Source of the DNA: Clytia hemisphaerica
Lineage: Eukaryota; Cnidaria; Hydrozoa; Leptothecata; Clytiidae
Length of the DNA stretch: 64,000 nucleotides
Direction: 5' to 3'
NCBI GenBank assembly: GCA_902728285.1
Contig: CACVBU010000346.1
Span: forward strand, 11,527 to 75,526
Below are positions 7,981 through 42,784 of this stretch, piece after piece. Below the pieces are notes generated by a model. The model was not told where the DNA came from and ran no database searches. It was given only the letters and a program-made list of their open reading frames with translations. The position numbers and the translations under genes are program-made. Position 1 is the first letter of the stretch. Each line of letters starts with the position of its first letter.

Positions 7981-8312
7981 TGATCACAATGCCTTGGTCA
8001 CATTCACTTTTTGTAGTGCTCCTTCCAGACAATATCAATCAAACGAATTGAACGCTGAATCAATCGACCACAATCGAACGCAATTCCAATTGCTTCCATT
8101 ACATTCAATTGTATTTGATTATACTTCATTAATTCAATTATATTCACTCTCGTACGATACTCTTGATTGTATCTTCTTTGCTGATGGCATATAGGTGGCC
8201 AACCATGCTAAGCTTTAAAGGAGTGGGTCAATTTAATTGCAATCAAACTTATCAAACATAATCTTAAATCAATCTAACATATTTGACAATCAATTGAACC
8301 AATCGGACATTA

Positions 8313-8495
8313 TAGACCTTTTTTCAAAGAGGCCACCCTGTTGAATAATTATGTAGTCCAGCAGAAAAACAATGATACACCCATGCATAATTATTACAAT
8401 ATGCATGAAACAGTAATTATGCATTGCTGTATCATTGTTTGTATGGCTGGAATACATAATTATTCAACAGGGTTGCCTCTTTGAAAAAAGGTCTA
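8313..8495. mobile_element. Complete 183 bp palindromic MITE
   Basis: The arms are near-perfect inverted repeats of about 50 bp (TAGACCTTTTTTCAAAGAGG at the left; its reverse complement ends at 8495), with an ATGCATAATTATTAC near-palindrome in the centre. The ends are compatible with a TA target duplication, as in Tc1/mariner-type MITEs. A second copy is at 1-133. The surroundings (8020-8310 and 8500-8610) are rich in CAATCAA/TTGATTG words. Confidence 0.8.
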
Positions 8496-10335: not shown

Positions 10336-10796
10336 TACCGTGAGTGGTCCTAAATCCGACAGCCCTGCCTAAATCCGATGGGGTATTTCAAAGATACAAA
10401 CTAAAATAAAAACAAACTTTTTGCTGTGATGCAATGAAGATACCAAAGTGTCAACTAAACTGAGAGATTTGATACACTGAACCAATTGAACCAAAACATT
10501 AATTGCTTCTTAAACAAAACATAATTCTTTATTACAAAATTTTTAACGTTTTAACACGAGCAACGAATTCAGAATTATAGAGGTAATTATTTTTACAACT
10601 TGCACTTTTTTTATCACATTAATTGACATCTTGACATTTTAGTCACCTTGTTACATGTTTGTTTCGAGAGTTCTTGCAATATAGTTTATTGTTCAACTTG
10701 GAGAGGGAATGTTTGTAAACATAGAATTTTCTTCATAGCAGTTATTTGGGGGGTCGGATTTAGGCAGGGCTGTCGGATTTAGGACCACTCACGGTA
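10336..10796. mobile_element. MITE with TACCGTGAGTGG ends, 460 bp
   Basis: TACCGTGAGTGGTCCTAAAT at 10336 is repeated inverted at 10796, and the first 42 bp match almost perfectly. TA sits at both ends, as expected for a TA target duplication. A diverged solo arm of the same family is at 9897-10110: it starts TACCGTGAAAGGTCC and shares the GTTTACAAACATTCCCTCTC block found at 10690-10720. Confidence 0.8.
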
Positions 10797-20176: not shown

Positions 20177-23100
20177 ATGATTGGAATCAAATTGCAAAGA
20201 TTAACCCCATTTTCAAGACAAGTCTCGCAATTTACAAAGAAGTATTTGCATCTGAATCACAGGTATCCTTTTTTCCTTGACATTGCTTCCCAGCTGGTAC
20301 GCAACATCGTTTTAACGTTTATATATCATTAAAAAAACATCAGGGATGTCAGATGGGCGTTGTTATGGCGTTAATTCTCTGTCAGTTGGGTTATTGCTAT
20401 TTTACTGCTTTGCAAGCTTTGAGAACCCTTTCCCGAAAATTATAATGTATCAATACTCACATTGTTTACATTTATGTGAACTTTGTCTTATAGATCAAAC
20501 AGTAAACTAGTTGAAAGCTATGACCATGTTGTATCAGAGCACAAGCTGATTGGAAAAACCATAGGCCAAGTTTTTATTGAAACTGTGGAAAAGTTTCCTG
20601 ACCATGAAGCTGTTGTGTTTCATCGAGACAAGAAGAGGATGACATTTGCACAGTTGGATGAAAAGGTTATTAACTTTTTCTTAGGCGACATTGACTTGAG
20701 ATGGTCCTTAATAGACATAATAAGTTATTTCTTTAAACGTAATGTTTTAAATAACTTCATTCTATTTATTCATTTATAGAAAATACCATAATCTATCTCT
20801 AATATCTCACCCAGGTGAATAAATTAGCTGCAAGCATTATTGGACTTGGTTTACAAAAAGGAGATCGTGTTGGTATTTGGGGACAGAATCATTTGGAATG
20901 GATGATTACTTTCTTAGCATCTGTCAAAGCTGGAACTATTCTTGTAAGAAGTTTTTATAATGATATTCAAAATTGCAGCTCCTAAACAATTAGCAATATA
21001 TATATTTCTTTCTTATAATCTTGGCTCAAGCTATGAGCACTATACAATGGTTTATATGAAAACTTAATTTCAATATGGATTCTAGGGGTTTTTTTAAACC
21101 TCCTGTATATTATCGAATAGAAATAGAGTATATTTTCTTCTATAATAGGTTAATGTAAACCCTGCATATCAGTCCAATGAGTTAGAATACGCATTGAATA
21201 AGGTAAGACATCTATCAAATCTTAACTTTGAAAAAAAATTTCTTTTGAATTATAATAAGAGAACAATATTAGAATTGCAGTGCAAAACTCTGTATTAAGC
21301 CATCTCAAATATTTCAAAGAATCTATATCTCAAAATTGAAATTAGGCTAACTATTTCATTTCAATCAGGTTGGAATGAAGGCATTGTTCATGACACCAGA
21401 ATTCAAAACATCAAATTATTATGATATTCTTCAAAATGTGACACCTGAAATTCTACATTCACATCCTGGTGAGCTCAAGTCAAAAAAGTAAGGACCTCTA
21501 TTCTTTTGATAATTTGTTTACCCACCTTCTCATTCTAAAGCAATCTTTCAGCAATAACGCAACTTTCATCATCATCTAAACAATTTCAATTAAAGATTTA
21601 TGCTTTCTAATTTTAGAATTCCTACACTGGAATCAGTGATTTTGACAGATGGCCCAGCAATGAGGTAGTCTTTTGCTTTTCTTCATCTATCTATTACATG
21701 TACAGTAGTTAGGTAAGCTAGGTGTTAGGTGTATTTTCTAATCACAATTATTTGTTTGAACCCCCTCCTAAAATTAAGATAAAAGCCTATGGCAATATCA
21801 ATGTCACGTTATATACAAGAGTTCGTCGGTGGACCGGCTAGTATTAATTTGCAAAATATCATGAGTGAGATGCGTGATGTGCCAGCTAAAGCACATGATT
21901 CGAAATTCCAGCAGAACAAATTAGAAAGTTTCATCACAAAATGTATGATTTATGTCCCTTATTAATTATCAACTATTCTTTAATTTCAGTGGTGCATTTT
22001 CATTTGAAGACGCTTTAGCAATTGGAGGAAAAGAAGAAAAATTAAAAGTAGAACAACTTCAGAAGAGCATTCAGTTTGATGATCCTGTCAATATTCAGTT
22101 TACATCGGTAATGATAATTCTTCTGCTTTTCTAATTTTCATATTCAGCAAGCAAAGTATTCATTAAAAAAGGTGCTGATATGGAAATTTTCTGTCTATGT
22201 ATCCTCACATTTGCAAATCTTTTGAAAATATAATGAGCCAGTTTGAGTAAAAAAAACAATTTTTAAGTTTTCATACTCGAAGTTTCAGGTCATACAGGAT
22301 ACAGTGATATAAATTTTTTCTATAAAAATTCACAATTCAATGTCTTCAAAAATTTTCTGAGGTCAATTCGAAATTTTTCTGAGGGCAATTTAGAATCATT
22401 CGAAAGTCTGGAGGAGAAATTTCTATCTGTGACGGCATTTGGCGATGATTTCAGTTCGCTTATTTAACAAGTTCCGACCTGGAAAGGTGGAAATTTAACA
22501 AGTTCAGAAAAGTGGTAAATATATTGAATTTATTTTCACAGGGTACAACAGGGAATCCAAAAGGAGCCACCCTCACTCATCATAATTTGGTCAATAATGC
22601 TGCTGCGATTGCTTTTGGTTTGGACTTTACTCCTGTTAGTAAGATTTCAACAATTTTCCATTTTTCTTGTCTAATAAAAGGCTGTGGGTTAATCTCTTCA
22701 AGATTTTACCTGTTCAATTTTCTATTTTCAGGTTGACCGTGTTTGTATACCCGTTCCACTTTACCATTGTTTTGGCATGGTTCTTGGAAGGTATGTTTTT
22801 AGTAATCTTATATGTGTTTTTTTAAGGGAATTTTGCTTTTTCATGTCGTTTCTTGTATTCTCGATAAAAAAACTGTTACTTTAAGCTTTATGAAGTTCAT
22901 TTAAAGAACTTAAGACTTCTGAAAATCTTAATAAGAGATGAATCAAGGACACCTTTTGTGAATAGTTTTGCGACGGAGATTTCATTGGATGACGAGAAAA
23001 TATTCGTAGAAAATGTATGTTTTTGTATTTCTAACCATTTGTAGTATGGCATGCTTGATGACTGGTGCTGCTCAAGTTTTCCCTCAACGTGGATTTAATG

Positions 23101-26100
23101 CAGAAGCTACACTGGATGCCATTCAAACAGAAAGGTTTAATATTAATTCATATTTATATATTTAATGTTTTATCATTGATTTTCTATGAATCAACTGATG
23201 AATGCATAAACAAGAAACTTAAGTATTGAGAAGAAACACACCTCTTTAATCTTTATGTAATGTTTTATCAAGTATTTCTAGTTGCTATTTATCACTGTAA
23301 CTGTTATATTTTATTTTTAAAGCTGTACAGCAATTTATGGAACTCCTGCAATGTTCATTGATATGCTAAACCATCCTAGCTTTCCAAACATCAATTTTGG
23401 GTCAATGAGAACAGGTATAAAAACATTGCATATCACACGTTACACATTTCACATAGGCTGAACTACTTGAAGATGTGTCCACTTTGTTGAGTCGAAGTCG
23501 AGTCTAAGTCCCCCATGTTGTTTTCTATTTCATGGTCACATTTTTGAGTATTTTAATTTAAAACAATCGAACCCCCTGGTTGACAAACAAAACAATTGAG
23601 AACACTATGAGGAACTAGTTAGTCACAACAGTGGACCTAATTATGTTGATATAGGAAGACTAGTCAGTTCAAGTAGTAAGATATCAGCGCTCTGCATCCA
23701 TATTTCAAAGTAAGTTTTACTGTTTTTGAAGGTCTGTTGATAAAAAATGATAAGCTTGCAAGGCATTGAACAAGCACTCTCTTGAATTTATAAATGGATT
23801 TAAGTTGAAGTCTCTTATTTGATTGTTCATATTTTGTTTGTGTTCAAATGCTTTTGAGAATAATTTCCTCCTTTTTTAACTCTCTACAGTGGCTTTTTGA
23901 GTCGATTCTTATTTCGCTTAACAAATTTATATTCTTATTTAAGGCTTGGTGAATGTAAATCACTTCTATTTTGCTTCTCATCTAGTGTCCTCTGCCTAAT
24001 TTCTTTACCATTAAACAAGGAACTTTTTATTGACATTTGTTCCGTTATTTTATCTAGTCTAGTGTTGCACCATATCTGTTTCATAGGAATTATGGCAGGA
24101 TCACCATGTCCAATTGAAATTATGAAGAAAGTGATCAGTGATATGAATTGCCCTGAGATGACTGTAAGAAAATGTATTTTTTTTCTAAAATGTTCTTTTT
24201 AAATCGTATAAAACCATGCTTTCCAGGTTAAAAACCCCAAAATAAAATACAGAAATTTTATATTGCTAATTTATTTCAAATATTGTCTACTGTAAGTCTA
24301 ATCATATGCAGAGTTTAAATAAGCCCAGTGTAATATGTTCGCTCATTTTTATGTTCGTTACTAGATTGCATATGGGTTGACAGAAACGAGTCCAGCCACC
24401 AATTTGACTTCAAGAGATACCCCTGTAGAGCTACGCGTTTCAAGTATTGGAAGAGTAATCCCACATGTTGAGGTGAGGTTAAGAAATACTGATACTTACA
24501 AAATTTGCTTTTATCAAGGCCACAGAGCTTTATTCATACCCTGGAGGCAGTTTCTCGATCCCAGCCAAGCAAAATATTTTGATCGGAGTTTTTTTTAAAG
24601 TGGTAACAGCATCGAGAGCGCAAGATCTACTTCACTTGCACACTATAGTGTGACGTAGCGCCGTTTGTTGTTAGGCAAAGTTTTAATACTACATGGATTC
24701 TTTGCGGGTACCACCTTCAACAAAACTCCGATCAAGTATGGCGGATATAACTTGGTCCAGGCATTATAAAGGTCATTGATTAAGACGCATTTTTAGCCTG
24801 GTTTTAAAAACACTCTTTCATGTAGTATTTTTCCACAATTTTCACTGCTGTGGTTAATCTAAGTATACATTACAAAAATTTCTAGCATTATCAGATGCTC
24901 ATCAGCTATTATACTGGAAATCTCGCAACAGCCTTTCTGCATCAGGTGTTATTTAGAATTCACTTAACTTATCTTGTTATACTTCTAGACCAAGATAATT
25001 GACGAGGAAGGCCACATAGTTCCAGTCAACACTTCAGGAGAACTGTGTTTCAGAGGTCATTGTGTTTTCCCAGGTTATTGGGATGACGTCATCAAAACTA
25101 AGGAAGCCATTGACGAAAATGGTTGGTTTCATTCAGGAGATTTGGGTCAAATTGATGAAAATGGATATTGTAAAGTGGTTGGACGTTTAAAAGATATGAT
25201 TATTCGTGGTGGCGAAAATATTTATCCAACAGAGGTGGAAAACTTCCTTCATAATCATCCTGATATTGAAGATGTTCAAATTGTTGGAATACCCGACGAA
25301 CGTTTCGGTGAAGAATGCTGTGCATGGATTAAGTAATTTTCATATTTCAAATTCGCATATCAAATTTTTCCAGCCTAATATTTAATATGAGCTGATATTT
25401 CTTTTGATTAGGATTTCGCTAAAAAATTCCACGTATCACTGAAATTATGTTCAGATATTTCCCTCTAATTCTCAAATTCTTATGATTTAAATAATATTCA
25501 AATTCTTTCAAATATTATTTTTCAGACTGAAACGAGGTTCAGAGACAACTGAAGAAGATATCAAACAATTCTGTAAAGGACAGGTATCCAACAATCTTGA
25601 TATCAGATGGTTTGCTTTATCGTTTTTTTATTATTTCACCGTTTTTTGAATATTGCCATGTTTTATAAATGAAACAAGACGACTTAAAGTCGAAAATTTC
25701 GCCTAGAATTTAAACTACATAGGAAAAACAAGAAGTAGAGATTGAAGCCAATTTGAAATCTACTTTACATCGAGCCTTGATGAAACAATTTTACAATAAC
25801 AACGAGGCTTAAAATCGCTAAAAAAGAGACCAATTTAAGAACAACTGTTGTTTAATTTTTAAGAACTAATAAACAAAGGTAATATCACCGTCCATCAAAA
25901 GTTATTGATTTGATTCTTATAAAGCAAATGCTTATATAAGAAAAATTAATATGCTCATATTGTGCGCCATCTATTGTTTATTTTGTAAGAGCTAATTACC
26001 GAAAGGTATATTACCGTCTATCAAGAGTTATTGATTTGATTCTTATAAAGTAAATGCTTATAAGAATAATAAATATGCTCATAATGTGCGCCGTCCATTG

Positions 26101-27533
26101 ATTACTTTGTAAAAACTAATTACCGAAAGGTATATCACCGTCTATTGTTATTGATTTGATTCTTATAAAGTAAATGCTTATAAGAAAAATAAAAATGCTC
26201 ATATTGTGTGCCATTGCTTGTTTACTTTGTAAGAGCTAATTACCGAAAAGTATATCACCGTCTATCAAGAGTTATTGATTTGATTCTTATAAAGTATATG
26301 CTTATAAGAAAAATAAGTAAGCTCATATTGTGCGCCATCCCTTGTTTACTTTGTAAGAACTAATTACCGAAAGGTATATTACCGTCTATAAAGGGTTATT
26401 GATTTGATTCTTATAAAGTAAATGCTTATAAGAAAAATAAATGAGCTCATATTGTGCGCCGTTCCTTGTTTACTTTGGAACAACTAATTACCGAAAGCTA
26501 TATCACCGTCTATCAAGAGTTATTGATTTGATTCTTATAAATTAAATGCTTATAAGAAAAATAAATATGCTCATATTGTGCGCCATCCCTTGTTTACTTT
26601 GTAAGAACTAATTACCGAAAGGTATATCACCGTCTATCAAGAGTTATTGATTTGCTTCTTATAAAGTATATGCTTATAAGAAAAACAAGTAAGCTCATAT
26701 TGTGTGCCATCCCTTGTTTACTTTGTAAGAACTAATTACCGAAAGGTATATCACTTTGATTCTTATAAAGTATATGCTTATAAGAAAATAAAGAAAAAAT
26801 CAAAACTGTGGAGCTAAAGACACAAAGATATATGACGTAATCCAAAGAAAACCCGCGAAAATCGTCCGTGGTTATACGAGCGTGTAATTTGTAAATTAAA
26901 TTTAGTGAGTTCGTCCACCGTATCAAGCACTTTCGTTTTCTAATTTTTTTTCCGATGACACCGCCGCCGCCGCAGAAAGGCTATCGTAATACTTTCGCTA
27001 AGCGAAATTAAAAAAGGAAGTGTTTTGATTACATTTTTAAATCAAGACGAAATAATAATACCCTTACTATGTTATTGATAAGGCACTGAGAATTTATACA
27101 GTACATCTTCTTTATATTCTAGATTTCACATTACAAGATTCCAAGATATATCGAGTTTGTTGATGAATACCCCATGACTGTCACTGGCAAGGTATGGAAC
27201 TTTGTTATAGTTTTGAAATAATCACCATCTTTCTAGAATTAATGTTGTTTGGCTCATAATAGACTGATGTGAGTTCTCCAATTTTCTATGACTCTAAAAT
27301 GTTCCAAGCTTCCCTACCTACCTTCTTTGGGATTGACTGATATTGTTAAAAGGCGGAGAGTAAGGTCTTTTTTTAGGTGAAAATAGAAATTTAGTAAAAT
27401 TTCAAACTTTTAAATCTAAATTTATTCCAGTAGCTGTTGAAAGCAACTGATTCTTTAGGCTACGTCATATTTTTTTCAGATCAAGAAGAACGAAATTCGT
27501 CAACAAATGAAAGTGAAAATGGGCTTGGAATAA
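20177..27533 (+). CDS. ACSF2: Acyl-CoA synthetase family member 2-like, copy 1
   Basis: This ANL-superfamily enzyme would activate a fatty acid with ATP to acyl-AMP and then acyl-CoA, by homology in mitochondria. Seventeen exons: 20177-20262, 20494-20665, 20815-20943, 21149-21202, 21369-21487, 21617-21664, 21990-22107, 22542-22634, 22732-22790, 23045-23134, 23323-23414, 24087-24163, 24365-24472, 24989-25332, 25526-25583, 27123-27191, 27480-27533. All junctions are GT-AG and keep frame, giving 589 residues (human ACSF2 has 615). Residues 1-29 are basic and lack acidic residues ([15 protein letters not shown]), like a mitochondrial presequence. The P-loop [17 protein letters not shown] is at about 241-257, YGLTETSP at 382-389, [11 protein letters not shown] at 465-475, [16 protein letters not shown] at 480-495, and the C-terminal catalytic Lys in MTVTGK at 572. 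The start is the only ATG that links by splicing to exon 2. Intron 15 holds a 122 bp tandem array. Confidence 0.93.
25860..26790. repeat. 122 bp tandem repeat, about 7.5 units, in ACSF2 copy 1 intron 15
   Basis: The unit contains GTTATTGATTTGATTCTTAT, AAAGTAAATGCTTATAAG, GCTCATATTGTGCGCCAT, CTTGTTTACTTTGTAAGA and ACTAATTACCGAAAGGTATA. The phrase TTATTGATTTGATTCTTATA recurs about every 122 bp from 25905 to 26640. The units are well matched with few indels, which implies recent array growth. It lies wholly between exons 15 and 16. Confidence 0.92.
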
Positions 27534-27890
27534 TTTTGATGAATTGGTTCTATATAAGGGGAAATCACTTTGGCAGTGTCTTTTTTAAGCTTACTTTTGT
27601 TCCTTTGATAAAAAAGCAGATATTGAATGAGTAAGGATCTTTTTGTGTTGATTATAGGGGGTTATTATAGGGTATAAAAAACGTTAGAATATGATTTAGA
27701 TATTAAAGAAATGTAATTTTGTAATTTAGTAGATATATAGTATAATTTAGCAAAGAATTTTATTATCCAGGTTTTAGTTTTTTATTTTCTATGATGAATA
27801 TTTTTTATCATTTTTTGATAATATTTTCAAGGTAATAATTTTTTGTACACGTTTTTATAGCACAGTCACACGTTATCCCTAAATACTTTT

Positions 27891-29448
27891 TGGACCTACC
27901 ACGGTGGAGGTCCTATAAATTAACCTTTGTCCGTCTGTCCGTCCGTTAGTTACCAGCTTTTCTCGAGATTGGCTCATTAGTTTTTTCTGATTTTTTGCAC
28001 AATGATGCAAAATGGCAATTCCCAAAATGTGACGGAGCCCGATTTTCGAAAAAAAAATTTGGGGGGCAAATTTGGGCCAAAAAACGGCTAAAAAACGGGT
28101 TTTTTGGACTTAGTGAAAAATTGGATCATTAATTTTTTCTGATTTTTTGCACGAAAGTAGGGTACCATCATAGGTATAAGATGGCTCAAGCAGATTTTTG
28201 CAAAAAAATTTTGTTGGCTCAAAAAACACATGTTTATCTATAAGAATCACTATTAATAAGCATACATCAATGTTCTTAGTCAAATTACTCAATTTTTTTA
28301 TGAGATAGATTTTTTTTCTGCTCATGAGGGCTTAATTTTGAAGAATATGTGTGTTTAGACAGGAAATGTGGGTTGCTTGGCGTGTTTTTATAGAAAAACT
28401 GACCAAATTCGATATTTCTTTATAAGCACATTATCAATTACTTAGGTATTGGCTTTTCTCGAGATTGGCTCTTTCATTCTTTATGATTTTTTACACAAAG
28501 ATGCATAACTATAAACCCTTGAATGCGGCAGAACTCGATTTTCGAAAAAAAATGTTTTTGGGCAAATTTGGGCCAAAAAACGGCTAAAAAACAGGTTTTT
28601 TGGACTTTGTGAAAAATTGGATCATTAATTTTTTCTAATTTTTTGCATAAAAGTAGTGTACCATCATAGGTAAAAGATGGCTTAAGCAGATTTTTGCAAA
28701 AAAATTTTTTGGCTCAAAAAACGCATGTTTATCTATAAGAATCACTATTAATAAGGATACATCAATGTTCTTAGTCAAATTACTCAATTTTTTTATGAGA
28801 TAGATGTTTGTTTTTTCTCACGAGTGTTTAGACAGGAAATTTTGGTTGTTTGGCGTGTTTTTATAGAAAAACTAGCCAAATTCAATATTTTTTTATAAGC
28901 ACATTATCAATTACTTAGGTATTAGATTGATTGGCTCTTTCATTTTCTACGATTTTTTGCATAAGGATGCATAACTATAAATCCTCGAATGTGACGGAGC
29001 CCGATTTTTGGAGAAAAAAAATTTTGGGGTATATTTCAGCTAAAAAAACGGCCATAAAAGGGTTTTTTGGACTTAGTGAAATATTGGACCATTGTTTTTT
29101 TCTGCTTTTTTGTATGAAAGTAGATAAAAGATGGCTCAAGCAGACTTTTGTAAAAAAATAATTTTTCAGCTCAAAAAAAGCATCTTTATCAATAAGAATC
29201 ACAATTAATAAACATACAATGTTCTTAGCCAAATTACTCAATTTTTTGGAGATGTTTTTTGCTCACGAAGTCTTGAATGAAAGAACATTTCAAGAGCATG
29301 AAATTTTGGTTTCTAAACGTTTTTTTATAAGAAACAAACGACTAATTTTAATAAATCGTCACTATTTGTGTTCTGAATGATTGTTTAATGGTCAAGTCAC
29401 GTAGATATCAATTATAAACGTGTTAAATGCATAATCCAGGTAGGTCCA
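27891..29448. mobile_element. 1.56 kb element with TGGACCTACC ends and three internal repeats
   Basis: A perfect 10 bp inverted pair TGGACCTACC/GGTAGGTCCA bounds the unit. The left subterminal part has CCGTCTGTCCGTCCGTTAG. Inside, a unit of about 460-480 bp occurs three times (from about 27965, 28445 and 28925), each with the words GGGCCAAAAAACGGCTAAAA, GATGGCTCAAGCAGA and ATCTATAAGAATCACTATTA in varying degrees of decay. No intact ORF is present. Confidence 0.65.
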
Positions 29449-30012
29449 TGAAAGTATCACTTGTTGAGGTTTAAAATGAAAATACAATATATTATCGCTG
29501 AGAACTATTCAAAATTGTTCATAAAAAACTTTTTGGTTCAAATGTACTCATCGTCAAGTCAGGGCAAAAAAACAAACTGCTGTCGTAATATAAATCTCGA
29601 ATTAATCCGTCAACGTCTTTCCATTCTAGCTTAGAATGAATTTAAACCAGCATTATTCCCTGACTCATGCTTTATTCAGTTTAATCATATTCAGAGGTTT
29701 TGCTTTGTTTTTGGTAGGCTGGCGAATGAAAAATTAACTGTGACGATTTCTAGATTCTAAGCGGGTGAATTCTTAGCAAGCACAGTGTATTGATTAGCGT
29801 AAATATGTACTTGAGGCGGCGAACCGAACTTTTCGAACGGCGAATTGCAATTATTTTCGTGCCTTGTACCAGCGAAATTCGCCGTTTGTTGTTTCCAATA
29901 ACAAAATGTTTTTGATTTTAATAGCACCAATGAAGAAAGGTTATCAATCACTAATCTAACTGTAAATACATTTAAATTAAGAATTCCTTGTTTCATTCAG
30001 TCTTGTCAGGTA

Positions 30013-31199
30013 TCCCTGGTAGAAAATCTTGATAAGATCTTACCAAGATCTTTTAAAGAAACTTGGCAAGAACTTTGTAGGTTTCTTTTCAAGATCTGTG
30101 CAAAGAACTTTAAAGATCTTGACAAGATCTTGACACGATCGTTTAGGATCTTTAAAGATCTTTAAGGATTCTTGAAGGTTTAAGATCTTTCAAGAATCGT
30201 ATTCAAAAATATACACACCCAAAAGATAAAACTGCTAAATTTTCTCCTTTCAACTAATAAAGAAATCATAAGATTCTTAGACCTGAATGTTAATGGTTCC
30301 TAAATTATAGAATATTTGCCTCGACTTTGACGATTGCAAGATCTCAAAACAGATACACATGAAATTTTTTAACTTCAAATCAGTCTAACTGACGAGTTAG
30401 GCTAACTGTCTAGATCGCTATTTATCCGGTTTTATACTCCACCCCATTGTATTCTTCGCCCTTACTTGTCAGCGCTAAATTACTCATTGTGGTGTATACA
30501 ATATAGACTCTGTTGTGTAGCAATCTACTAATTTGCCGTAATTCTACAGATGTCTGTAGAAATATGAAATCTACATATTTTGTAGAATAATAATTCTACC
30601 CTATATACCCTATTTGTATGGTTGTATTTAAATTTGATATTTAAATTCTTTAAAGAAAGTCAAAATCGAAGATTTTATCATAACCACAAATTTACGTGTT
30701 CTTGTGTTTATTCAACAAGATTCTTAACCCGAACTTTATAAGAAACACTAAGAATCTTAAAGTTTCTTTGCATATTTGTCAATTAAGATTTGGAAAGTCT
30801 CTTTGTAAGAACTTAATAAGAAACGCTAAGAATCTTAAAGTTTCTTAGCATATTTGTCAATTAAGATTTGGAAAGTCTCTTTATAAGAACTTGATAAGAA
30901 ACACAAAGAATCTTAAACTATTTTATGGTTGCAAGATTTCATAAGATTTCATAAGATTCTTCTTAAGAACTTAATAAGAAACCTAAATTTTCTTACTATG
31001 AACGTGTGCGAAGAATCTTGACAATTCTTAACAATTTCTTGACACGATCTTTAAAGATCTTTTTGTAATAAGAAATTTTCAAGATTTTATAAGAATCTTT
31101 GTAAGATCTTACAAAGATCTCTTAAGATTCTTACTTGTTAAAGATCTTTAAAGATCTTTAACGATCTTTTCAGATCTTATCAAGAATTTTTACCAGGGA
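30013..31199. mobile_element. 1.19 kb foldback element rich in AAGATCTT
   Basis: TCCCTGGTAGAAAATCTTGA, then TAAGATCTTACCAAGATCTT, at the left is mirrored at the right (reverse complement TCCCTGGTAAAAATTCTTGA, TAAGATCT). Both arms are dense in the palindrome AAGATCTT and in AAGAATCTT, so the single strand could fold extensively. The centre is unique (30230-30700), including GTAATTCTACAGATGTCTGT. Confidence 0.75.
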
Positions 31200-32002
31200 T
31201 GTACAGAACACTTGACAGTGCATTTTGAACTATATTTCAAATTCATAAAAATAGCTTCTAGCCTACTAACATACTTAAATACTTGAATAAAATGCGAGAT
31301 GCTAAGACGCGTGTTATAGTTTTTCATTGGAAATATTTTAGATAATATTCAAATGACAACCTAGACTCTCATACAAACCGAATTTTTAAGAATAAGGAGC
31401 AATTCTTTAACCAATGTATAGCAAAAGAAATTCTTAACGCAATGTTATTGAATTGATTCTTGTAAAACTGTTAGAAATCGAGTAAAATCAAGATGAAGTT
31501 ACAAATTTCTCGAGCCCTAGCTTTCCATATAATGGTGTGGTCATGATGCGGTTATATCAGTAGAATTGCTAGGAAATTCTGAGCAAGAAAATATAGGTAC
31601 CTTTTCATATAGGTGAGGTGTACCCAAAATATAAGTCCTAAAATTTTGCGCATAATCAGGCTTGAAACAAAAGAAATTTTTCTTAACACGCTAATCATGT
31701 AGGTTTTTTAATGCGACAACAAAAGAAACCTATTAACTCGACATAAACTCCCTTAAGGGCAAGGGACCTGGTATATGGCGAGCCGTTTTTCCATTGTTTT
31801 CAAGAAACTGTTTTTCCATCTCTTTACATTCCTCTGCTCAAACATATGCTGTAAAATGATTCTTTTTTTGTTATGTTTTTGTTTTGTCATCGTTATGTTG
31901 TTGTCACTTAATAAGATGAACAAAAACTTAAAATCTGGTTTTAACAGCTCTTGAAATAGAGAAACATTGCATTTTTGCTACTTATTTTTCAGCACAACAG
32001 AT

Positions 32003-35000
32003 ATGTTCAAAATATTGAGAAATATCCTCAAAAAGAAAAGATATGCACGAAATTTACACAGGTATTTTAAAACATTATTTCATCCGTCGTTAAATTCATG
32101 AATTTTCTTCAGAGGGACTAAAATTATATTATATCAAATCTTACAGTATTTTATGACTTCAACACGGAAAGTGTTTTCCAAATTCATCCCTTTCACAGTG
32201 TTGTTGAAACCTCTGTTGTTTGATGAATATGTTTATATTTTTGTGCAAACAAAAGATCAAGGGGACAACTTAAGTCGATGATATGTATCTTAAGACAAAA
32301 GATTGGGATACTTAGGGTCATTCCACGAGTAATAAGTCCCCTTATATGAGCTACGGACTTAACACGAATTTTTTTTATTGTACTCAGGAAAGATAGATCT
32401 AATATACGTTGCCACACTTTTCTTTCTTTTTGCCTTAAACTAAAGTTAAAAGCCTTTAAACTAAAAATTGGCTATTGTGTTCATGTTTTTTGTCGTTTTT
32501 TGACGTTTTATTGAATAATTTGAAAACTAAGCGTTTGGAAAAAAATTTTCGTCTATTTTTCTGGATCATGATCATATAAAAAGTTTTATTAAATTGTAAA
32601 ACGTAAGGGGACTTATCACTCTTTGAAGATGACGAGGTCATGCTTCCTTTGTTATCTTTTATTTCTTCGTCAAATTGACGAAATTGATTATTATCAGCAT
32701 CAATCGATAGAGAATTTAATAAGCTTTCCAAAAATATATACTTTTACTATTGAAATCTATCTGTATCGAAAGCTATCATCAAAAGAGTCAGGTGTGGTGT
32801 AAAAGGTTTCCACGTACCTTAAAAATTTAAAACATTCATCAAAAAAATATGGAAAAGAGATTTTCTTGCCGTTTCACATAGTGTTACTGATGACTGCCAT
32901 GAATTTTAAGAAAATCAGATTTATAAAAGCTCTACCGATGGGACTGGGAACTTAATTGAATAATAATTCAGCACTGCAACTGAAAACTAATCTCTGTATT
33001 TCCTTATAGTGCTAAACTAATTGAAAGCTATGACCATGTTGTATCAGAGCACAAGCTGATTGGAAAAACCATAGGCCAAGTTTTTAATGAAACTGTGGAA
33101 AAGTTTCCTGACCATGAAGCTGTTGTGTTTCATCGAGACAAGAAGAGGATGACATTTGCACAGTTGGATGAAAAGGTTCTTAGTAACACTTTGTAAGAAA
33201 TTTAATCTATTTGTAGGTCCGTCCATCTAATTATCCATTTGTGACGTTAAACAATGATCCGACTGTGTACATTATATTTTCTTCATTAATGCTGCCTTTT
33301 TCGCTTAATTGGTCATTAAGCCAAGAGAGGTCTACCCCTCTCTTGGAGAGCAAAAGGTTTAATGACCAATTTTCGACGTTAAATCTGGAATGCTGATATG
33401 AAAGCGATCAAAATCTTTTGTTAAGCACGAATCTTTATTGTATATTTTTTACAACCCTTAGAAATTTATAAAAAGGACCGTTGATGAGAACCACTTATCT
33501 ATCTAGCGTAGTGAAAAAGCACCCTTTATGTCCCTTTAACTATCCATAAATAAATTGGTTGCCATAAAAGTAGCAGAATGTGCAGTGGGATTCTTTTGTA
33601 AAAAATTGGTCGTATGGGAAAAGTGTTTTCTTTCCCGGTAGAGTTGAAGAGCAAACTTTCATCTGTATTGATTTGATACAAAAGACGAGGAATCTTGTCA
33701 CAGAAAATGTTCATTAGAAGGCTGTAATTCTAAATCCCTTGATATGCGAGTTGATGATTTTTAATAAAATTTTCTTCAAATTCAAAGGGTTGTAAACGCT
33801 TTGACAACTGTTTTGGGAGTTAGTAATACTTTCCTATCAATTTTTTTTGTTTCAGCTAATCGATTTTCGCCAGACAGTCTCAGTGAAAAACCACCCAAAG
33901 TAGTGACGAAATTTGTAAACAAACCGTTTGCAGCGGGATACAAAATCAAAACAAATGTCACATGCCAAAATAAAAAAATGATTGTTTTAATTTTTTTAAT
34001 GACACGTGGTTCGCGCAATGTTTACATTTTACTACTTTTATATCCCTTTAAAAATTCCCAGAAAATTATACTAAAACTGATCAAAAGTTTAGATTACCAA
34101 ATCCGGGGGGGGACTCACATGATCCGACCCACTGTAAGGGTGTCTTTGGGGGCTACTGGATCGCAAATCTGATAGTAAAAATCTGTTGTATCTTTACAGT
34201 TTTGATTTGCACTTATTTTAATTTGTTTTGCACATTGTGTCAACATCTCTGGCTCATTTCAGGTGGCTCCAGCAAAACTTATCTTATGCAATCAAATTAT
34301 ACACTGTAAGGGTCAGAAATGTTCGGTAAGATGCACTGTAAGGGTACCTTTTTCACTACTCAAGGGCTGCACTGTAAGGGTCTGATTTTGAAAGCCATTG
34401 TTTTGACTTCACATGCCGTCGTCTAGAAATCTTGACATCGGTTTTAATTTTTTTTCATTCAGGTGAATACATTAGCTGCAAGCATTATTGGACTTGGTTT
34501 ACAAAAAGGAGATCGTGTTGGTATTTGGGGACAGAATCATTTGGAATGGATCATCACTTTCTTAGCATCTGGCAAAGCTGGAACCATTCTTGTGAGGAAA
34601 CTGTTTAATAAGAATAAACTTACTATTAATGGAACAATGTGTTCTCATTTTGATCAAAGATGTATTTGTAGAACATATTTGATTATTTTTGCCTCATATA
34701 TTCTCAGTTTTTATTAGGTTTGGCCTTTATCGATTATATCAACCTTCCATCTTTATTCTCTCATTAGGTCAACGTCAATCCATCTTACCAATCGAAGGAG
34801 CTACATTATGCATTGAATAAAGTACATAACAATTTTTCTGCGATAACTGTATTAGAGAGTCGATGTTTTACATGGATAGCCCGGTAATCTATGACTTTTA
34901 GACAGTCTTTCGGTTGTTTTCATGGGGTTCACGGCTAGTCGGCTGGGCTATCTATGAACTGAACGGAACATTGGAAGGAGCAGGGATTCGAACTGCGATC

Positions 35001-38000
35001 CCCTGGGTAAAGACGCTGACGTCTTTGACCACTTGGCCATCGCTCCTCTGCGAATCCAGAGATTGATTTCATCGTTTTGAAATTGAAAGAAATACATTAA
35101 GTCAAGTTTCATGCCTTACAGCAATCAACAGACGTGCAATCAACATCGAAATTTTGAAATGAATTTATAACAGTTTTTTTGTTTCGGTCTTGCTCTATCT
35201 ACCAATATTTTGGCAGCAAATTTGGTCCTGCCATTTTGTTTAAGGCAAGTACCAGAAGTATTTAAATCTTTACAGTTAAGCTTATAGAGCTATTAGTTCG
35301 AGAGCCGTCGGACTTTTTATTAGGTCATAAGCCTCAGAATTTTAACCATGGCGTCATCAAATAATGACATAAAGTTCCCACAAAGTGTGATTGGTTGTCA
35401 TGGACACACTGTCCAAATTTCATCGCTAAATATTGAGTAGATAAAACGCTATACAAAGTGTCGTCCAAAAGGGGGGTCATCTGACCAGGTCAAGGAACCG
35501 GTTTTTTTGGTTAGATTTTCGATTTTCACTGTCCCTAAGGGTTGTACTAATTACCTGCAAAATTTCAGCCATGAGGCTCATGACCTAAATTTAGGCCCCT
35601 TTTTGGTCTCATTTTTGGGCATCTGACCAGGTCAAGAAACCGGATTTTTTGGTTAGATTTTCGATTTTCATTGTCCTTGAGGGTTGTACTAATGACCTGT
35701 AAAATTTCAACCATGAGGTTCGTGACCTAAATTTAAGCCCTTTTTTGACCTCTTTTTTTGGGCTCGTGGAGATCAAAGAGACAGCTAGTGTTCGATCTGA
35801 CAAAACTTTTTTGAGACTTTTCGATGCGGCGAACACGTTGAGGATGGTTAAAATTCTGAGGCTTATGACCTAATAAAAAGGCCGACAGCTCTCGAACTAT
35901 ATCAGTGTAGAGCATGTTAATGATATTCTCTGTTTTTAATCAGGTTGGGATGAAAGCACTGTTCATGACACCAGAATTCAAAACATCAAATTATTATGAT
36001 ATTCTTCAAAATGTGACACCTGAAATTCTAGATTCACATCCTGGTCAACTCAAGTCAAAAAAGTAAATACATATTTGCATATTGCTGTTAAACATGAGAA
36101 AGGTTAAATTATCTTTTGAAACAAAAAATCTATTGTTAAAGAAAACTACTACTGCTTCACACTATTCCACCCCTTTGCCTCCACCCCTTTACCTCGCGAA
36201 AAAAATGTTATTCAAGGCATTAAAAATGATATTCTTTATAAAATTTTCTCTTTTTAGTGTTCCAACGCTAGAATCAGTGATATTAACAGAAGGACCTGCC
36301 TTAGAGTTTGTATAATCTGTTTTCATGTCTAATCCAATCTGCAGGCTTAAGAGATTTGGTGAAATTCAAAAGGGATCCTGACTCAAAAGTTGATAAAACG
36401 CGTTTCTAAGCCTTGATGATTCATTAACGTAGCATATGCTATTTTTGTAATAAGCATAAAATTATTTTGTTTCCTGTTCTGATATAATGTGATTCTCCTT
36501 GCGGTATGTTTCAACAACAGACGAATGAGATCTCAGCACAGACTCAGACTGTATTAGTGCAATGCCCCTCCAGAGCGATTCTCACTCCAGTCCTCAGTGA
36601 AATGGCTCACCTATAAATATCACTATTCCTATTTGGCACATGCGCACAAAAAGAAAACATCTCTCAGTTAGAGAGAATTAATTTTAATGAAATTTTGTTT
36701 CTATTTAACAATGATAAAATAATGGTTTTCTTTCAATTTCAGTGGAGCTTTTTCATTTGAAGATGCTTTAGCAATTGGAGGAAAAGAAGAAAAAATAAAA
36801 GTGGAACAACTTCAGAAGGGCATTCGGTTTGATGATCCTGTCAATATTCAATTCACATCGGTATGGGTCATAATTCTATACCAAAAGTCTTTATTGAAAG
36901 TCTATACCCATCGTTTACGGAGTTGAATTGTGGGAAGGGTTGATTATAAAATTTTTCGATCTCAGGCGAACTTCCTACATTCCTGATCATCATATTTTTT
37001 AAGTATTACCACCGCTTTTTCTGTATAAAATATTGCTTTTCTACACATGGACAGTAATGGCATGCTATAAAGAAGAAGTATGTACCCTACTACTAAGGTT
37101 TTGTCAAATCTTTGGTGAAAATGAACTCTTTCTCTTTTAGGGTACAACAGGGAATCCAAAAGGTGCCACCCTCACTCATCACAATTTGGTCAATAATGCT
37201 GCTGTTATGAGTCATATTACTGAAATCACTGAGGTACTATACGTCTGGTTGCACTGACAAATTTTCCCAGTTTGATGTTGTAAACCGTCTATCGTTTTTT
37301 GCAGTAGACTCGAATTCTATCTCGAATCTCTTTTCACTTTCGTTTTACGCGTTTAGCGAAAATTAGTTACCGTGAAAATTAGTTCCCATAATGGGTGGCA
37401 TTGAATAACAAGACTTCAGAAAAAGGAATTCAAAGTCGATGTCTGGTTAAACTGAATTGAACTGTTCTGAAAAAAGGCACTCTGAGAAAGAGGCTACAAA
37501 ATACATTTCCAGGACTTTAAGGATAAAAAGTTTATTCGTTCCGTAAAATTTTATTCCGTTCCGTAACGTCGTTTTCCAAAAATCTTGATTTAATTTTTTC
37601 TTCCACAGGAAGATCGTGTATGCACTCCACAGCCTTTGTATCACTGCTTTGGAACAGTTATCGGCTGGTAAAAGCTATTTCTTCAGATTTCTTTACTATT
37701 TATCATAATACTCACAAAACACTTAATTGCTCGAATATTCTGTTATATGTATTACTGATTCCCGTATGATTTCGAATTATCGAAACTCAGGTATCTATCG
37801 GTTTGCGTCGATTTAGCATTAAAGAACCAAGTTTTCAGTCAATGATTCTTCTCTTCCTTTGAATGAAGTTTAGCAAGTCTCATAAACGGTGCAACGCAAG
37901 TCTATCCTACGCGTGGTATCGATCCTGCAGCTACTTTAGAAGCTATTGAAAATGAAAGGTATCCTGTTCGTCTATATTGTCTTTTTAGTTGTATTTATAT

Positions 38001-41000
38001 GTCTTTTTACATGATCTAAGATCATGTTCAGTTCATTATTTTCAATGTAAGAAACACTCTCCCTCATAATCTTTTAACCTCGTTTGTAACTCACACTACT
38101 TTTTATTTGAAACTCATTAGCTTTAAAATCCCTATCTTTAGACCCGAATACTAATGAAAATCTTTTCTAAGATTCAATTTTGTAATTAAGAAATTTCATT
38201 AAAAGCAATAAAGTCGTTGTTATTGTGCTTCATCTAATAATTACAGAAGTCCAGTTACAGATCTAGTTACAGAACTTCTCCCTTGAAATAGACCCAAGAG
38301 GGACTAAGCAAGTTATCCTCAATACGGCGACTGATCTTAGTGGGCACTAAAACTTTTTACTTTCATGTTAACTTTTAGATGTACGGTGATATACGGTATA
38401 CCGACCATGTTTTTGGACATGTTGCACCATCCAACATTTAAACGTGAGAATATGAAAACGTTGCGAACAGGATGCTTGGGTGGACAACCTTGTCCTCCTC
38501 AATTGATGCGTCGAATCATCGAAGATATGGATTGTCCAGAGTTCACTGTATGTAAACATCCCTGTCTCACTGACCCATCGAATGTTTATTTTTAACGATG
38601 ATCTCATCAGGGAGAATATTTTTAAGGAATCCTACTGGCACTGACAAAGTGTCCTTGTGTCTGCCCACCGGGTGTGCCAAAAATAAGTTACCCTCTTTGA
38701 TTTGATATTGTAGGCAGTAGAAGAAATATTTTTGCAAAAATTGTTGCGGAATCGTTAAAAGTTTTCCTCTGATTGATTCCAAAAAACTTTTGAAAAACCT
38801 TTCTACTACTGCCTGCAATATCAAATCAAAGAAGTTAACATATTTCTGGCGCACCCTATATTTAGAGTCTTTGGTTCTCTTGTTTTCCCAAGATTCCCAA
38901 TGAATCATTATTTTTTTCAGATAGGGTATGGTCTTACAGAAACAAGTCCAATCGTTACATTTGCTGATCCCAATGCTGAAATCGAAAGACGAATGACCAC
39001 TATCGGAAAAACTTTGCCGCACATGGAAGTGAGTTTTCTGTCGTGATTAAAACTTTCATTCTAAAATTGACACAAACACATTGTAAGTTGTTTTTTATGC
39101 TCGTTGGATGACCCGTTGGTAAACCCTAGGACTGTTTCAGTCATCCTTTCTTCTAGATATTTATATCCCAACATCCCAATCCACCATTTTGCCTAGCTAG
39201 TATAAAATGAAAGCATTTATAGCAATATATAGCATTTTCATTTTTATTAGACCAAGATAATTGACGAGGAAGGCCACATTGTTCCTGTTAACACTTCAGG
39301 AGAATTGTGCTTCAGAGGTCATTGTGTTTTCCAAGGTTACTGGGATGACGTCATCAAAACTAAAGAAGCCATTGACGAAAATGGTTGGTTTCATTCAGGA
39401 GATTTGGGTCAAATTGATGAAAATGGATATTGTAAAGTGGTTGGACGTTTAAAAGATATGATTATTCGGGGTGGCGAAAATATTTATCCAACAGAAGTGG
39501 AAAACTTCCTTCATAATCATCCTGATATTGAAGATGTTCAAATTGTTGGAATACCCGATGAACGTTTCGGTGAAGAATGCTGTGCTTGGATTAAGTAAGC
39601 TCCAATTACCTCTATTCATGATATGCACCATTGCAATGTCTTCCGTTCCACCCAATAGCTGATTGGTTGAAAGTGATGTATTGACCGATTTTACGTCACT
39701 TCCAACCAATGAGCTATTGGTTCTGTGACGTAATGTCAGAAGACATTGCAGTAGTGCATATCATGAATATTATGTCCTTTGAATCAAGTTGAAAGGCCTT
39801 TAGGGTAATCATCTCGATAGTACCAAGTCAATCGGTAACCAATGGCTAACGGGGAAGAGATTTAGCAGATCACAAAAATTACATCAAGCCTGTTTTCTAC
39901 AGAGTGAAAAAAATCCGTATATTCCTAAGTTATATCAGTCCTTTTAAGGAGCAATGGACAAGTGGTTAAAGGTGTCTGTGTTAAAAACCAGGGGTTCGCC
40001 CTTTGAATCTCCACTTCTTCCTTCGTTCAGTTCATAGAAGCCGAGCCGCTTATTGCGAACCCCATCCAAGACTGTCATAGAAAGTCCTAGATTTGTCTGT
40101 TTAAGTAAAATATCAACTATCTCTACTATATATCGTTCAATATATCATATAACAGTAGCTTCAAGGATGCATTACTTTTAAAAATTAACACTACACTTTA
40201 GGATTGAGAAGAGGATGTGACACTACCAAAGAGGAATTAAAACAATTTTGCAAAGGAAAGGTAAAGTTGTTGGTTTTCTACCTAGATTCATGTTATAAAG
40301 ACTCATCCTCTATGCAGATTCATGGGAACTGTCCTCTGTAATCTTAATGACTTGCAATAATTAGATATGTTCACCTGTTAATCAATTACATTCGGTAAGT
40401 CTGAAGAAATGGTATCTGTTGAATGAATCATTTTAGTGCTGTGAATATATAATCCTTGTAACCTGTTTTCCTCTTCTCCATAGATCTCGCATTACAAGAT
40501 TCCAAGATATATTGAGTTTGTTGATGAATACCCCATGACTGTCACTGGCAAGGTACGTGACCTAGCATTCGAGCCCAGTCTCTTTGTAACGTCAAATACA
40601 CCTGTCTCACCAAATAATTTCTGCTTATCAAGTCTCTTTAAAAGTATTTAAGCCCTCCTTTATTTGATGACGTTTCCTTAAAATTCTGCACTTCCAATCT
40701 TACTGCCCGAGTTTATGCATTCGAGACAATTCAAGGGGTCAGGGGACGGTATAAAGCAAAGTTGACATGTCTCCAAAATCACCGTCAACTTTGCTCGACG
40801 ACGGTAAAAAACACCAAGATACCGTCGTCTGTTTAGGTGAACAAAGGCGATATAGAGCTTAGAGTGTACATCAACTATCGACTTTGTTTTGTATCATTTC
40901 ACTTACCGTCGCCCTCGATATCCTCCGATACATAAATACGGTAGTTTTAAAGTTCAGACGGTAAGGTAAACCATATTAAGAAACCGATTAAATTCATCAT

Positions 41001-41881
41001 TTTGGTAAGTTGTGTTGTTGTACTGACGCCCAGGTTGTTGATGCTCCCCAAGGTTTTGGAGAATAACTATCCAACGGTGTTTTTTTTTCTCCTCAACTAC
41101 CGTGCTCAAAAGATGGACTACTTGTTAGCCTTTTTGTATTCATAATATCTTTTATATTCAAATCTCGATTACTATTAGACGAGGAGTTAAAGAGGGATTT
41201 TATTTTGAATACATTATCAAGCAACCCCCTTTACCTAATAAATGTCTATCCGATTGTAATATACCACACAAAAGTTGTGTAGAAAATGCCTGTCTCAGCT
41301 TCTCGGTCGTGTTTGAAACTCCAAATGAAAATATTCTAAAAAGCTAACCTGAAAATCACAATCAGCAAAACATCCCACGGGATAAGTAATAAAAGTCTTT
41401 TAACCAGGGGACGCAAAAGATCTTGTAACTTGTAGGTGCAGCTTTTCAGTCTGGGGTTTTCCCAAATATACTAATTTTTACCAAAACGAAACTCTTGGTA
41501 AGGGTTTAAGTTTAGGCTACTTGGAGGATTATTCCTAATGGGATTTCATTAGACTCTATAGTCTAAGACAAATCACTATCTAAAAGAAATAAGCCCAAAG
41601 CCGAAGAAAATTCACAAATGGGTTTTTTGCCGAAAAGAGTTTACAGTCGGTAGAGTTTAACAGTCTTCGAAATTCTTCGAATCTCTCCAGCCGATTTTTT
41701 TACGTATATACGTATACCGCCATATTTTCCCGCCTGAAAAATTTGCAGGGTGGTCAAATTTTCTAATATCAAATGGTGTCGTAGTAGCTCATTCAATGAA
41801 ACATAGTTATTGCTTTGTTATTTTCAGGTCAAAAAGGTCGAAATTCGTCAGCAAATGAAATTGAAAATGGGTTTGGAATGA
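32003..41881 (+). CDS. ACSF2: Acyl-CoA synthetase family member 2-like, copy 2
   Basis: Same enzyme type as copy 1, about 4.5 kb downstream in the same direction. Sixteen exons: 32003-32061, 33010-33175, 34463-34591, 34768-34821, 35944-36062, 36258-36305, 36743-36860, 37141-37233, 37609-37667, 37869-37958, 38379-38547, 38921-39028, 39251-39594, 40209-40260, 40484-40552, 41828-41881; about 576 residues. The first 20 residues ([17 protein letters not shown]) form a basic mitochondrial-type presequence unrelated in sequence to that of copy 1. The P-loop GTTGNPKGA is at 232-240; [24 protein letters not shown] and MTVTGK are all kept. Exons 11 and 12 of copy 1 are fused here (38379-38547). Three splice choices rest on frame: donor GA|GTTTGT at 36305, acceptor GAATGAAG at 37868 rather than TTTAG, and acceptor ATTGAG at 40208 rather than TTTAG at 40201. 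The introns hold two SINEs and several MITEs. Confidence 0.9.
34130..34381. repeat. Four copies of CACTGTAAGGGT
   Basis: The exact 12-mer occurs at 34130, 34302, 34334 and 34370 on the plus strand, within intron 2 of ACSF2 copy 2. The function is unknown; it could be the subterminal motif of an old transposon. Confidence 0.75.
34855..35046 (-). mobile_element. tRNA-derived SINE, copy 1
   Basis: On the minus strand from 35046 the head resembles a class II (Ser/Leu-like) tRNA gene: GGAGCGATGGCCAAGTGG contains an A box (TGGCCAAGTGG), and GTTCGAATCC at about 34990 is a B box. The acceptor-like ends GGAGC and GCTCC pair. A non-tRNA body follows (CGTTCAGTTCATAGATAGCC, AACCCCATG, GACTGTCTAAAAGTCATAGA). 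It lies in intron 4 of ACSF2 copy 2. A functional tRNA is unlikely because the anticodon arm is abnormal (four-base loop) and a SINE body is attached. Confidence 0.8.
35296..35897. mobile_element. 602 bp MITE with TA flanks
   Basis: GTTCGAGAGCCGTCGGACTT, then TTTATTAGGTCATAAGCCTC and AGAATTTTAACCA, is mirrored by the right arm ending GCTCTCGAAC at 35897. TA flanks both ends. Inside, a unit of about 130 bp is repeated twice (ATCTGACCAGGTCAAGGAAC near 35478 and ATCTGACCAGGTCAAGAAAC near 35621). It lies in intron 4 of ACSF2 copy 2. Confidence 0.85.
38670..38856. mobile_element. 187 bp MITE
   Basis: GGGTGTGCCAAAAATAAGTT and CTTTGATTTGATATTGTAGG, CAGTAG are mirrored by CTACTGCCTGCAATATCAAA, TCAAAG and TTCTGGCGCACCC. 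It lies in intron 11 of ACSF2 copy 2, between exons 38379-38547 and 38921-39028. Confidence 0.85.
39614..39769. mobile_element. 156 bp MITE
   Basis: ATTCATGATATGCACCATTG, then CAATGTCTTC, is mirrored by GAAGACATTGCAGTAGTGCA, TATCATGAAT. An inner pair, CCAATAGCT and AGCTATTGG, continues the stem. It begins 20 bp after the exon that ends at 39594 in ACSF2 copy 2. Confidence 0.85.
39948..40105 (+). mobile_element. tRNA-derived SINE, copy 2
   Basis: The head GGAGCAATGGACAAGTGG and the body word CGTTCAGTTCATAGA, then AACCCCAT, GACTGTC and TCATAGA, match the SINE at 34855-35046 in the opposite orientation, with more decay in the B-box region (TTTGAATCTCC). It lies in intron 13 of ACSF2 copy 2 (between 39594 and 40209). 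Confidence 0.75.
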
Positions 41882-42336: not shown

Positions 42337-42784
42337 AAGTCTGTCTCAAAATAATTTGCAGCTGAGACAAAAAATGGCTGTAACTTTTGGAAGAATTTGA
42401 ATGAAGTTGCGATTTTGTGCTCGTTGAAAAGATATTTGTGAGTGGAATATTATCAAGCAAATAAATTTGAAAAATACATAAAAATGAAGAAAATCAACTT
42501 CTTGTAGAAATGAGGTATGATTACAATTTTCACAGGAGTGATTCTTCAATCTTTGACCATCATCACTGTGAAAAAATTTTTCAAAAATATTTCTAGAAGA
42601 AGTTAATTTTTTTCTTCTTTTTTTTTTCATTTTAAATTTTCTTTTTTTTCCAATTTTTTTTGCTTAATAATATTCCACTCACAAATATCTTTTCAATAAG
42701 CACAACATCGTTACTTGATTCAAATTCTATCAAAAGTTACAGTCATTTTTTGTCTCAGCTGCGAATTATTTTGAGACAGACTTT
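42337..42784. mobile_element. 448 bp inverted-repeat element between convergent genes
   Basis: Arms of about 124 bp (42337-42460 and 42661-42784) are inverted copies: AAGTCTGTCTCAAAATAATT, TGCAGCTGAGACAAAAAATG, then AAAAGATATTTGTG and GAGTGGAATATTAT. The loop is AT-rich with a poly-T run. It sits between the end of ACSF2 copy 2 and the end of the first reductase gene. Confidence 0.85.

Follow-up and report, generated by a model that had tools for sequence, protein, structure and literature searches.

It has been proposed that selection may hold duplicated genes apart at functional sites in spite of gene conversion between them (according to the accessible part of PMC3924837). Two patterns are described for Tigriopus californicus in the sections of PMC3728101 consulted here: conversion between GOT1Sd and GOT1Sr is mostly limited to the exons beside an unalignable intron, and GOT1p1 and GOT1p2 form a mosaic in which strongly and weakly diverged parts share a single gene, in a sequenced stretch without introns. 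In mammals, the two-copy genes BMP8A/B, DDX19A/B and TUBG1/2 have undergone lasting concerted evolution over part of their length, as reported in the accessible part of PMC2720389. The present work concerns two ACSF2-like acyl-CoA synthetase genes, copy A and copy B, which lie in a 64,000-nucleotide stretch of Clytia hemisphaerica DNA (assembly GCA_902728285.1, contig CACVBU010000346.1, positions 11,527 to 75,526 of the forward strand; hereafter the window). The two copies are probably old duplicates that have undergone recurrent ectopic (interlocus) gene conversion with genomic DNA as the template; we infer the DNA template, the recurrence and a selection for different pockets from the patterns described below. 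The name ACSF2 is the label given in a previous interpretation of the same letters (the sequence-only reading).

In ANL enzymes the substrate pocket lies between A3 (the P-loop) and A5. The exons of A and B were rebuilt using GT-AG borders and are listed, with the other loci, in Table 1. According to their silent differences they were placed in a near class (exons 2, 3, 5, 7, the first 22 codons of 8, 14 and 16) and a far class (the remainder); these classes were drawn after seeing the data, and the intron-flank, constraint and A3-A5 tests rest on other information. Synonymous divergence (dS) per exon in the near class ranges from 0 to 0.30, at about 0.15, whereas exons 4, 9, 10, 11, 13 and 15 are silent-saturated and dS is 1.6 in exon 6, 0.81 in exon 12 and 0.49 in exon 17 (intermediate). 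Among degenerate codons that specify the same amino acid in both copies, 27/313 differ in the near class versus 72/123 elsewhere (Fisher test, 7.6e-27), silent identity in the tracts being far above that of the rest of the pair. None of 20000 permutations reached the observed heterogeneity in silent divergence between exons, which refutes a uniform dS, and the longest silent-identical run, of 77 codons, exceeds the maximum of 51 found in the same number of permutations; in spliced coordinates, identical runs cross the 2/3 and 7/8 joins. The individual exons behave much as the sequence-only reading had described them. The mismatches of exon 2 fall at offsets 7, 8, 16 and 83 of the aligned part (the first 7 nucleotides of A omitted), leaving one difference in its last 150 nucleotides as claimed, and the dozen mostly silent differences noticed in the 344-nucleotide exon 14 are 12 mismatches, 11 of them silent. 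Eight of these 12 lie within the first 114 nucleotides (P 0.024, with the split chosen post hoc), which suggests more than one event. The closeness reported for exons 3, 5, 7, the first part of 8 and 16 is borne out by the silent counts per exon, and the near-identical tract of exon 8 ends inside the exon. The far exons had been called clearly diverged at the protein level; this holds for most of them and fails for exons 4, 6 and 17, in which the divergence is mild (83%, 75% and 82% protein identity, respectively).

Table 1. Positions of copies A and B, their exons and blocks in the window, and of the other acyl-CoA synthetase genes compared
Feature	Position	Strand	Counterpart or remark
Copy A, ACSF2-like acyl-CoA synthetase gene	20177-27533	+	17 coding exons, 589 amino acids
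Copy B, ACSF2-like gene	~32003-41881	+	15 exons matched to A, and a candidate exon 1
Copy B candidate exon 1	32003-32061	+	
A exon 2	20494-20665	+	B 33010-33175; 0 silent differences, 0/33.3 synonymous sites
A exon 3	20815-20943	+	B 34463-34591; silent differences 2/29.7 sites
A exon 5	21369-21487	+	B 35944-36062; silent differences 4/25.7 sites
A exon 7	21990-22107	+	B 36743-36860; silent differences 6/24.2 sites
A exon 8, first part (P-loop, 22 codons)	22542-22605	+	B 37141-37204; silent differences 3/17 sites
A exon 14 (344 nucleotides)	24989-25332	+	B 39251-39594; silent differences 11/68.8 sites
A exon 16	27123-27191	+	B 40484-40552; silent differences 3/14 sites
Diverged block in A, end of exon 8 to exon 13	22606-24472	+	most of the A3-A5 stretch and a little beyond
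Diverged block in B	37205-39028	+	holds the fused exon 38379-38547
B partner stretch of A exons 2 to first part of 8	33010-37204	+	exons 4 and 6 inside diverged; introns unalignable
X, luciferase/4CL-like acyl-CoA synthetase	C735 2607432-2619735	+	
Y, luciferase/4CL-like acyl-CoA synthetase	C735 2693521-2687752	-	
Four acyl-CoA synthetase genes (L025, L026, L027, L029)	C513:758833-778992		single long open frames, 650-694 amino acids

The introns present the opposite picture to the near exons. All 14 intron pairs tested, which lie from exon 2 to exon 17 and were compared over the initial 1500 bases of each intron against 60 shuffles, gave homologous scores inside the shuffle range, in agreement with the failure of the introns to align by eye, and a comparison of the A and B loci found no match better than E 0.001 outside the exons. 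The tracts finish within a few bases of most splice sites. Intron bases 3-8 beside the near exons match in 40/72 cases versus 38% in the null (P 0.00075), and those beside the far exons in 38/96 versus 40%; across the seven flank lengths tried, the near exons always gave P <= 0.02 and the far exons nothing notable. The flank check proposed in the sequence-only reading therefore finds no homology leaving the near-identical exons beyond these few bases.

A scheme that would account for the mosaic is that of an old duplicate pair still exchanging sequence by ectopic gene conversion from a genomic template. The introns would have drifted past recognition long ago, each exon becoming an isolated island of homology; long exons would have been converted repeatedly and most short ones would have escaped, with tracts ending at splice sites since homology ends there. 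The block from just past the P-loop (A3) to beyond A5 would have been spared too. The likeliest reasons are that the choice of substrate depends on its amino-acid differences, with selection acting against converted alleles, or that early divergence prevented pairing. Exon length and silent divergence are correlated in the 16 exons (Spearman -0.74, P 0.001), the longer exons being more alike, and the near and far classes differ in length (Mann-Whitney P 0.006). Mismatches crowd the exon edges: in six converted exons, exon 8 being omitted, 12/39 lie within 10 nucleotides of an edge versus 12.7% expected (P 0.0025), and wider margins give P 0.004-0.033. Near and far exons alternate in 10 runs without clustering (P for 10 runs or fewer, 0.80).

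Two further groups of near-copies, judged by coding sequence, were found among 11 compared loci outside contig C245. The genes X and Y of contig C735, for which the closest solved relative by sequence is 4-coumarate:CoA ligase, are inverted, 68 kilobases apart, and have seven exons of equal length and 569 amino acids each. Exon 1, codons 66-162 of exon 2, and exons 6 and 7 are 94-99% identical, whereas identity is 57-70% in codons 1-65 of exon 2, in the part of that exon past the P-loop and in exons 3-5. The block that opens with the P-loop and closes with exon 5 has 60/105 silent differences, versus 45/336 outside it (P 4e-18). Here two introns are alike as well, with 93/104 bases in the one after exon 1 and 99/111 in the one before exon 7, and the tract of exon 6 halts at both of its splice sites. 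A third sequence, L072 (C574:7701-8700, 1000 bases), is 96.6% identical to Y, introns included, with intron differences of 5/150 and 5/148. It is probably the other allele of Y on a separate contig, less probably a very recent duplicate; as an allele it suggests high heterozygosity. In the converted stretch of exon 2, X and Y differ at 16/291 sites versus 8/291 between Y and L072, and if L072 is an allele, the divergence of X from Y in this stretch is not far above the allelic level. Polymorphism shared by X with Y/L072, which would point to conversion still in progress, shows no excess in the converted stretch: of the 8 Y/L072 differences, 3 match X one way and 4 the other.

The second group is a cluster of four genes on contig C513, which we take to be FATP-like. 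Their C-terminal parts are nearly identical and their middles diverged, in a mosaic weaker than that of A and B. Of three blocks, A3-A5 has the highest silent difference in 6/6 pairs (P 0.006 to 2e-8, the pairs not being independent) and the C-terminal block the lowest, also in 6/6 pairs.

Regarding the cause of the near-exon identity, the pair could in principle owe it to extreme constraint on protein and codons without any conversion, and the A and B proteins are indeed much alike in the near exons. The comparison with a Chryseobacterium homologue (L036; L037 gives the same picture) argues otherwise. Near exons are 45% identical to it in both A and B, and far exons 47% in A and 40% in B, whereas identity between A and B is 96% in the near exons and 58% in the far ones. 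Exon 5 is 15% identical to the bacterial protein and 93% between A and B, exons 9, 12 and 13 of A are nearer to the bacterial homologue than to B, and exon 4 is silent-saturated despite 83% protein identity. Both exon classes are about equally far from the bacterial homologue. The duplication is thus old, and the likeness of the near exons was acquired later; constraint, which leaves the near-exon identity unexplained, is rejected as the cause and is very improbable, as the sequence-only reading had anticipated when it found selection alone hard to invoke. Even less credible is a recent duplication, or one long tract including introns, followed by fast replacement of the introns. The common intron positions would fit it, but a near-exon dS of about 0.15 implies introns that still align, and most far exons are silent-saturated; the 14 unalignable pairs rule it out. 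What the sequence-only reading had put forward, recent conversion tracts, is strongly supported by the non-uniform dS and by intron homology that stops within a few bases of the exons, so that neither result which that reading had named as a refutation came about.

Its further suggestion, that spliced complementary DNA (cDNA) served as the template, fares less well. If the cDNA (or RNA) of one copy had been used, tracts would halt exactly at exon borders, and most splice sites do have a tract end no more than a few bases away; B also lacks one intron of A, identical runs cross the 2/3 and 7/8 joins, and silent divergence among the near exons is roughly even (P 0.15), which fits one age. The tract ends, however, do not decide between templates, because homology stops at the splice sites under a cDNA and a genomic template alike, and the missing B intron sits in a diverged exon. 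Against a spliced template stand the unconverted exons 4, 6 and 15 between converted ones, the exon 8 tract that ends in the middle of its exon, and the alternation of near and far exons, which breaks the contiguity expected in messenger RNA coordinates. Moreover, intron bases directly adjoining near exons agree more often than chance predicts, as they should not if no intron bases were copied, the X/Y tracts contain about 100 bases of intron sequence, and among the 46 matches listed, with the best candidates scored, there is no intronless ACSF2-like copy. Together with the effect of exon length and the crowding of mismatches at exon edges, these observations leave the cDNA template unsupported and rather improbable, and conversion from genomic DNA is preferred.

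Regarding the donor, neither a protein search, in which the best candidates were scored, nor a DNA search with exons 14 and 2 turned up a third ACSF2-like copy or a retrocopy. The matches listed outside contig C245 all have <= 46% identity; locus L038 was left out of all counts. Base composition gave no signal of the donor direction, and a scan of viral contigs found no relative.

The stretch from A3 to A5 is the most silent-diverged of the three blocks in A/B, in X/Y and in 6/6 of the C513 pairs, and a control pair of bacterial orthologues has no peak there (0.27, 0.36 and 0.39; P 0.51). We read this as conversion homogenizing a shared shell while the pocket stays apart, and we infer selection on substrate choice at A3-A5. 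The same conversion could, however, have missed the block by chance or through early divergence, without any selection on the substrate; this alternative is a variant of the preferred explanation, so that the probabilities of the two overlap. Exon length explains much of the pattern, and stretches outside the A3-A5 block, namely exons 4, 6 and 15 of A/B and codons 1-65 of X/Y exon 2, were likewise spared, so that shortness and early divergence also count. On the other side, in all three separate gene groups this is the one of the three blocks with the greatest silent divergence, and in the C513 genes, which are single long open frames, exon length is irrelevant. Escape without selection is on balance unlikely, though it keeps real weight. 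A broader proposal, which we put forward tentatively, is that of module sorting: ongoing exon-by-exon conversion would keep the catalytic shell and the C-terminal domain common and the pocket distinct, independently in the three groups.

Several observations weigh against recurrent conversion with a spared pocket as set out above. The evenness of near-exon silent divergence is compatible with a single event. Two short pieces, of 64 and 69 nucleotides, were converted, whereas exons of 90-108 nucleotides were not. Divergence also marks exons 4, 6 and 15 and the start of X/Y exon 2, none of which belongs to the A3-A5 block, and in some C513 pairs 40-codon windows before A3 reach the silent divergence of the block, so that sparing is not confined to the pocket. 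GC content at third codon positions (GC3) does not rise in the converted exons of A and B (near 0.285/0.288, far 0.317/0.344). Copy B may be damaged or misassembled at 40200-40202: the acceptor AG of the exon matching A exon 15 is at 40200-40201 and is followed by an extra G at 40202, the sole border that does not conform to GT-AG, and canonical splicing there would, as read by hand, shift the frame and lead to an early stop. The extra G could stem from an indel in the assembly or reflect a recent defect. Finally, the evidence comes from one genome and bacterial homologues only.

Copy A translates from its rebuilt exons without an inner stop. The 15 exons of B correspond to exons 2-17 of A, exons 11 and 12 of A forming a single exon in B (38379-38547), and intron positions are common to both copies apart from one. 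The A intron at 23415-24086 (its exon pair within 23323-24163) has no counterpart in B, by either a gain in A or a precise loss in B. A tandem array of units of about 125 bases occupies 25842-26796 in intron 15 of A, and a tandem repeat of about 480-500 bases lies directly downstream of A, at 27956-29247. Self-complementary inverted repeats of about 150-450 bases, possibly small DNA transposons, are found at 42337-42783, 38670-38856, 39613-39769 and 8312-8496, two of them in introns of B. Elsewhere in the genome, AMP-binding matches of equal score occur in inverted orientation at C498:5036-5353 (+) and 10475-10792 (-), a probable near-copy pair. P450 matches of equal score and length, at C191:213873-215288 and 223152-224567 and at C49:280131-281501 and C920:370331-371701, are either recent duplicates or alternative assembly haplotypes. 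Contig C900 (L035) is mitochondrial and carries cox1 and cob. TGA is read as Trp there and AGR is consistent with Arg in cob, a usage indicative of a non-bilaterian animal, for instance a cnidarian.

Conversion restricted to exon islands after full divergence of the introns would mean that barely more than 100 bases of homology suffice to keep ectopic exchange going in very old duplicate pairs. Whole-gene trees for such genes will mislead. Repeated sparing of the pocket block makes the theory of selection against conversion in duplicates directly testable, and if module sorting is true, enzymes with new substrate ranges would keep a shared, jointly updated body. Literature searches on ACSF2 with gene conversion, and on interlocus gene conversion with acyl-CoA synthetases, found no report.

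Both A and B proteins contain AMP-binding and AMP-binding_C domains and in these resemble the acyl-CoA synthetases of the ANL superfamily. For both, the NCBIfam model with the highest score is PRK12583 (NF009233, fatty acid CoA ligase), although their 761.5 and 736.5 bits stay below its curated cut-off of 832. The pattern in A/B, X/Y and the C513 genes fits the idea that selection can keep duplicates apart against conversion, as given in the accessible part of PMC3924837. The nearest published case, as far as the consulted sections of PMC3728101 go, is Tigriopus GOT1, in which exon-limited conversion and the mosaic occur in separate gene pairs. In the Clytia genes, by comparison, alignment fails in 14 intron pairs, conversion covers seven exons or parts of exons with most others saturated, and three gene groups are involved. 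The mammalian pairs, in the accessible part of PMC2720389, were chosen for at least one highly similar intron, unlike A and B, and GC3 is raised in two of the three of them and unraised in A/B. Opsins are like A/B in that a functionally important exon is diverged and the neighbouring sequence homogenized, and unlike them in that their introns are homogenized and divergence is low overall; in A/B the exons are homogenized and the introns unalignable. Exon homogenization and a spared functional site thus both have precedents, and it is their repetition in three groups of genes that is the interesting part.

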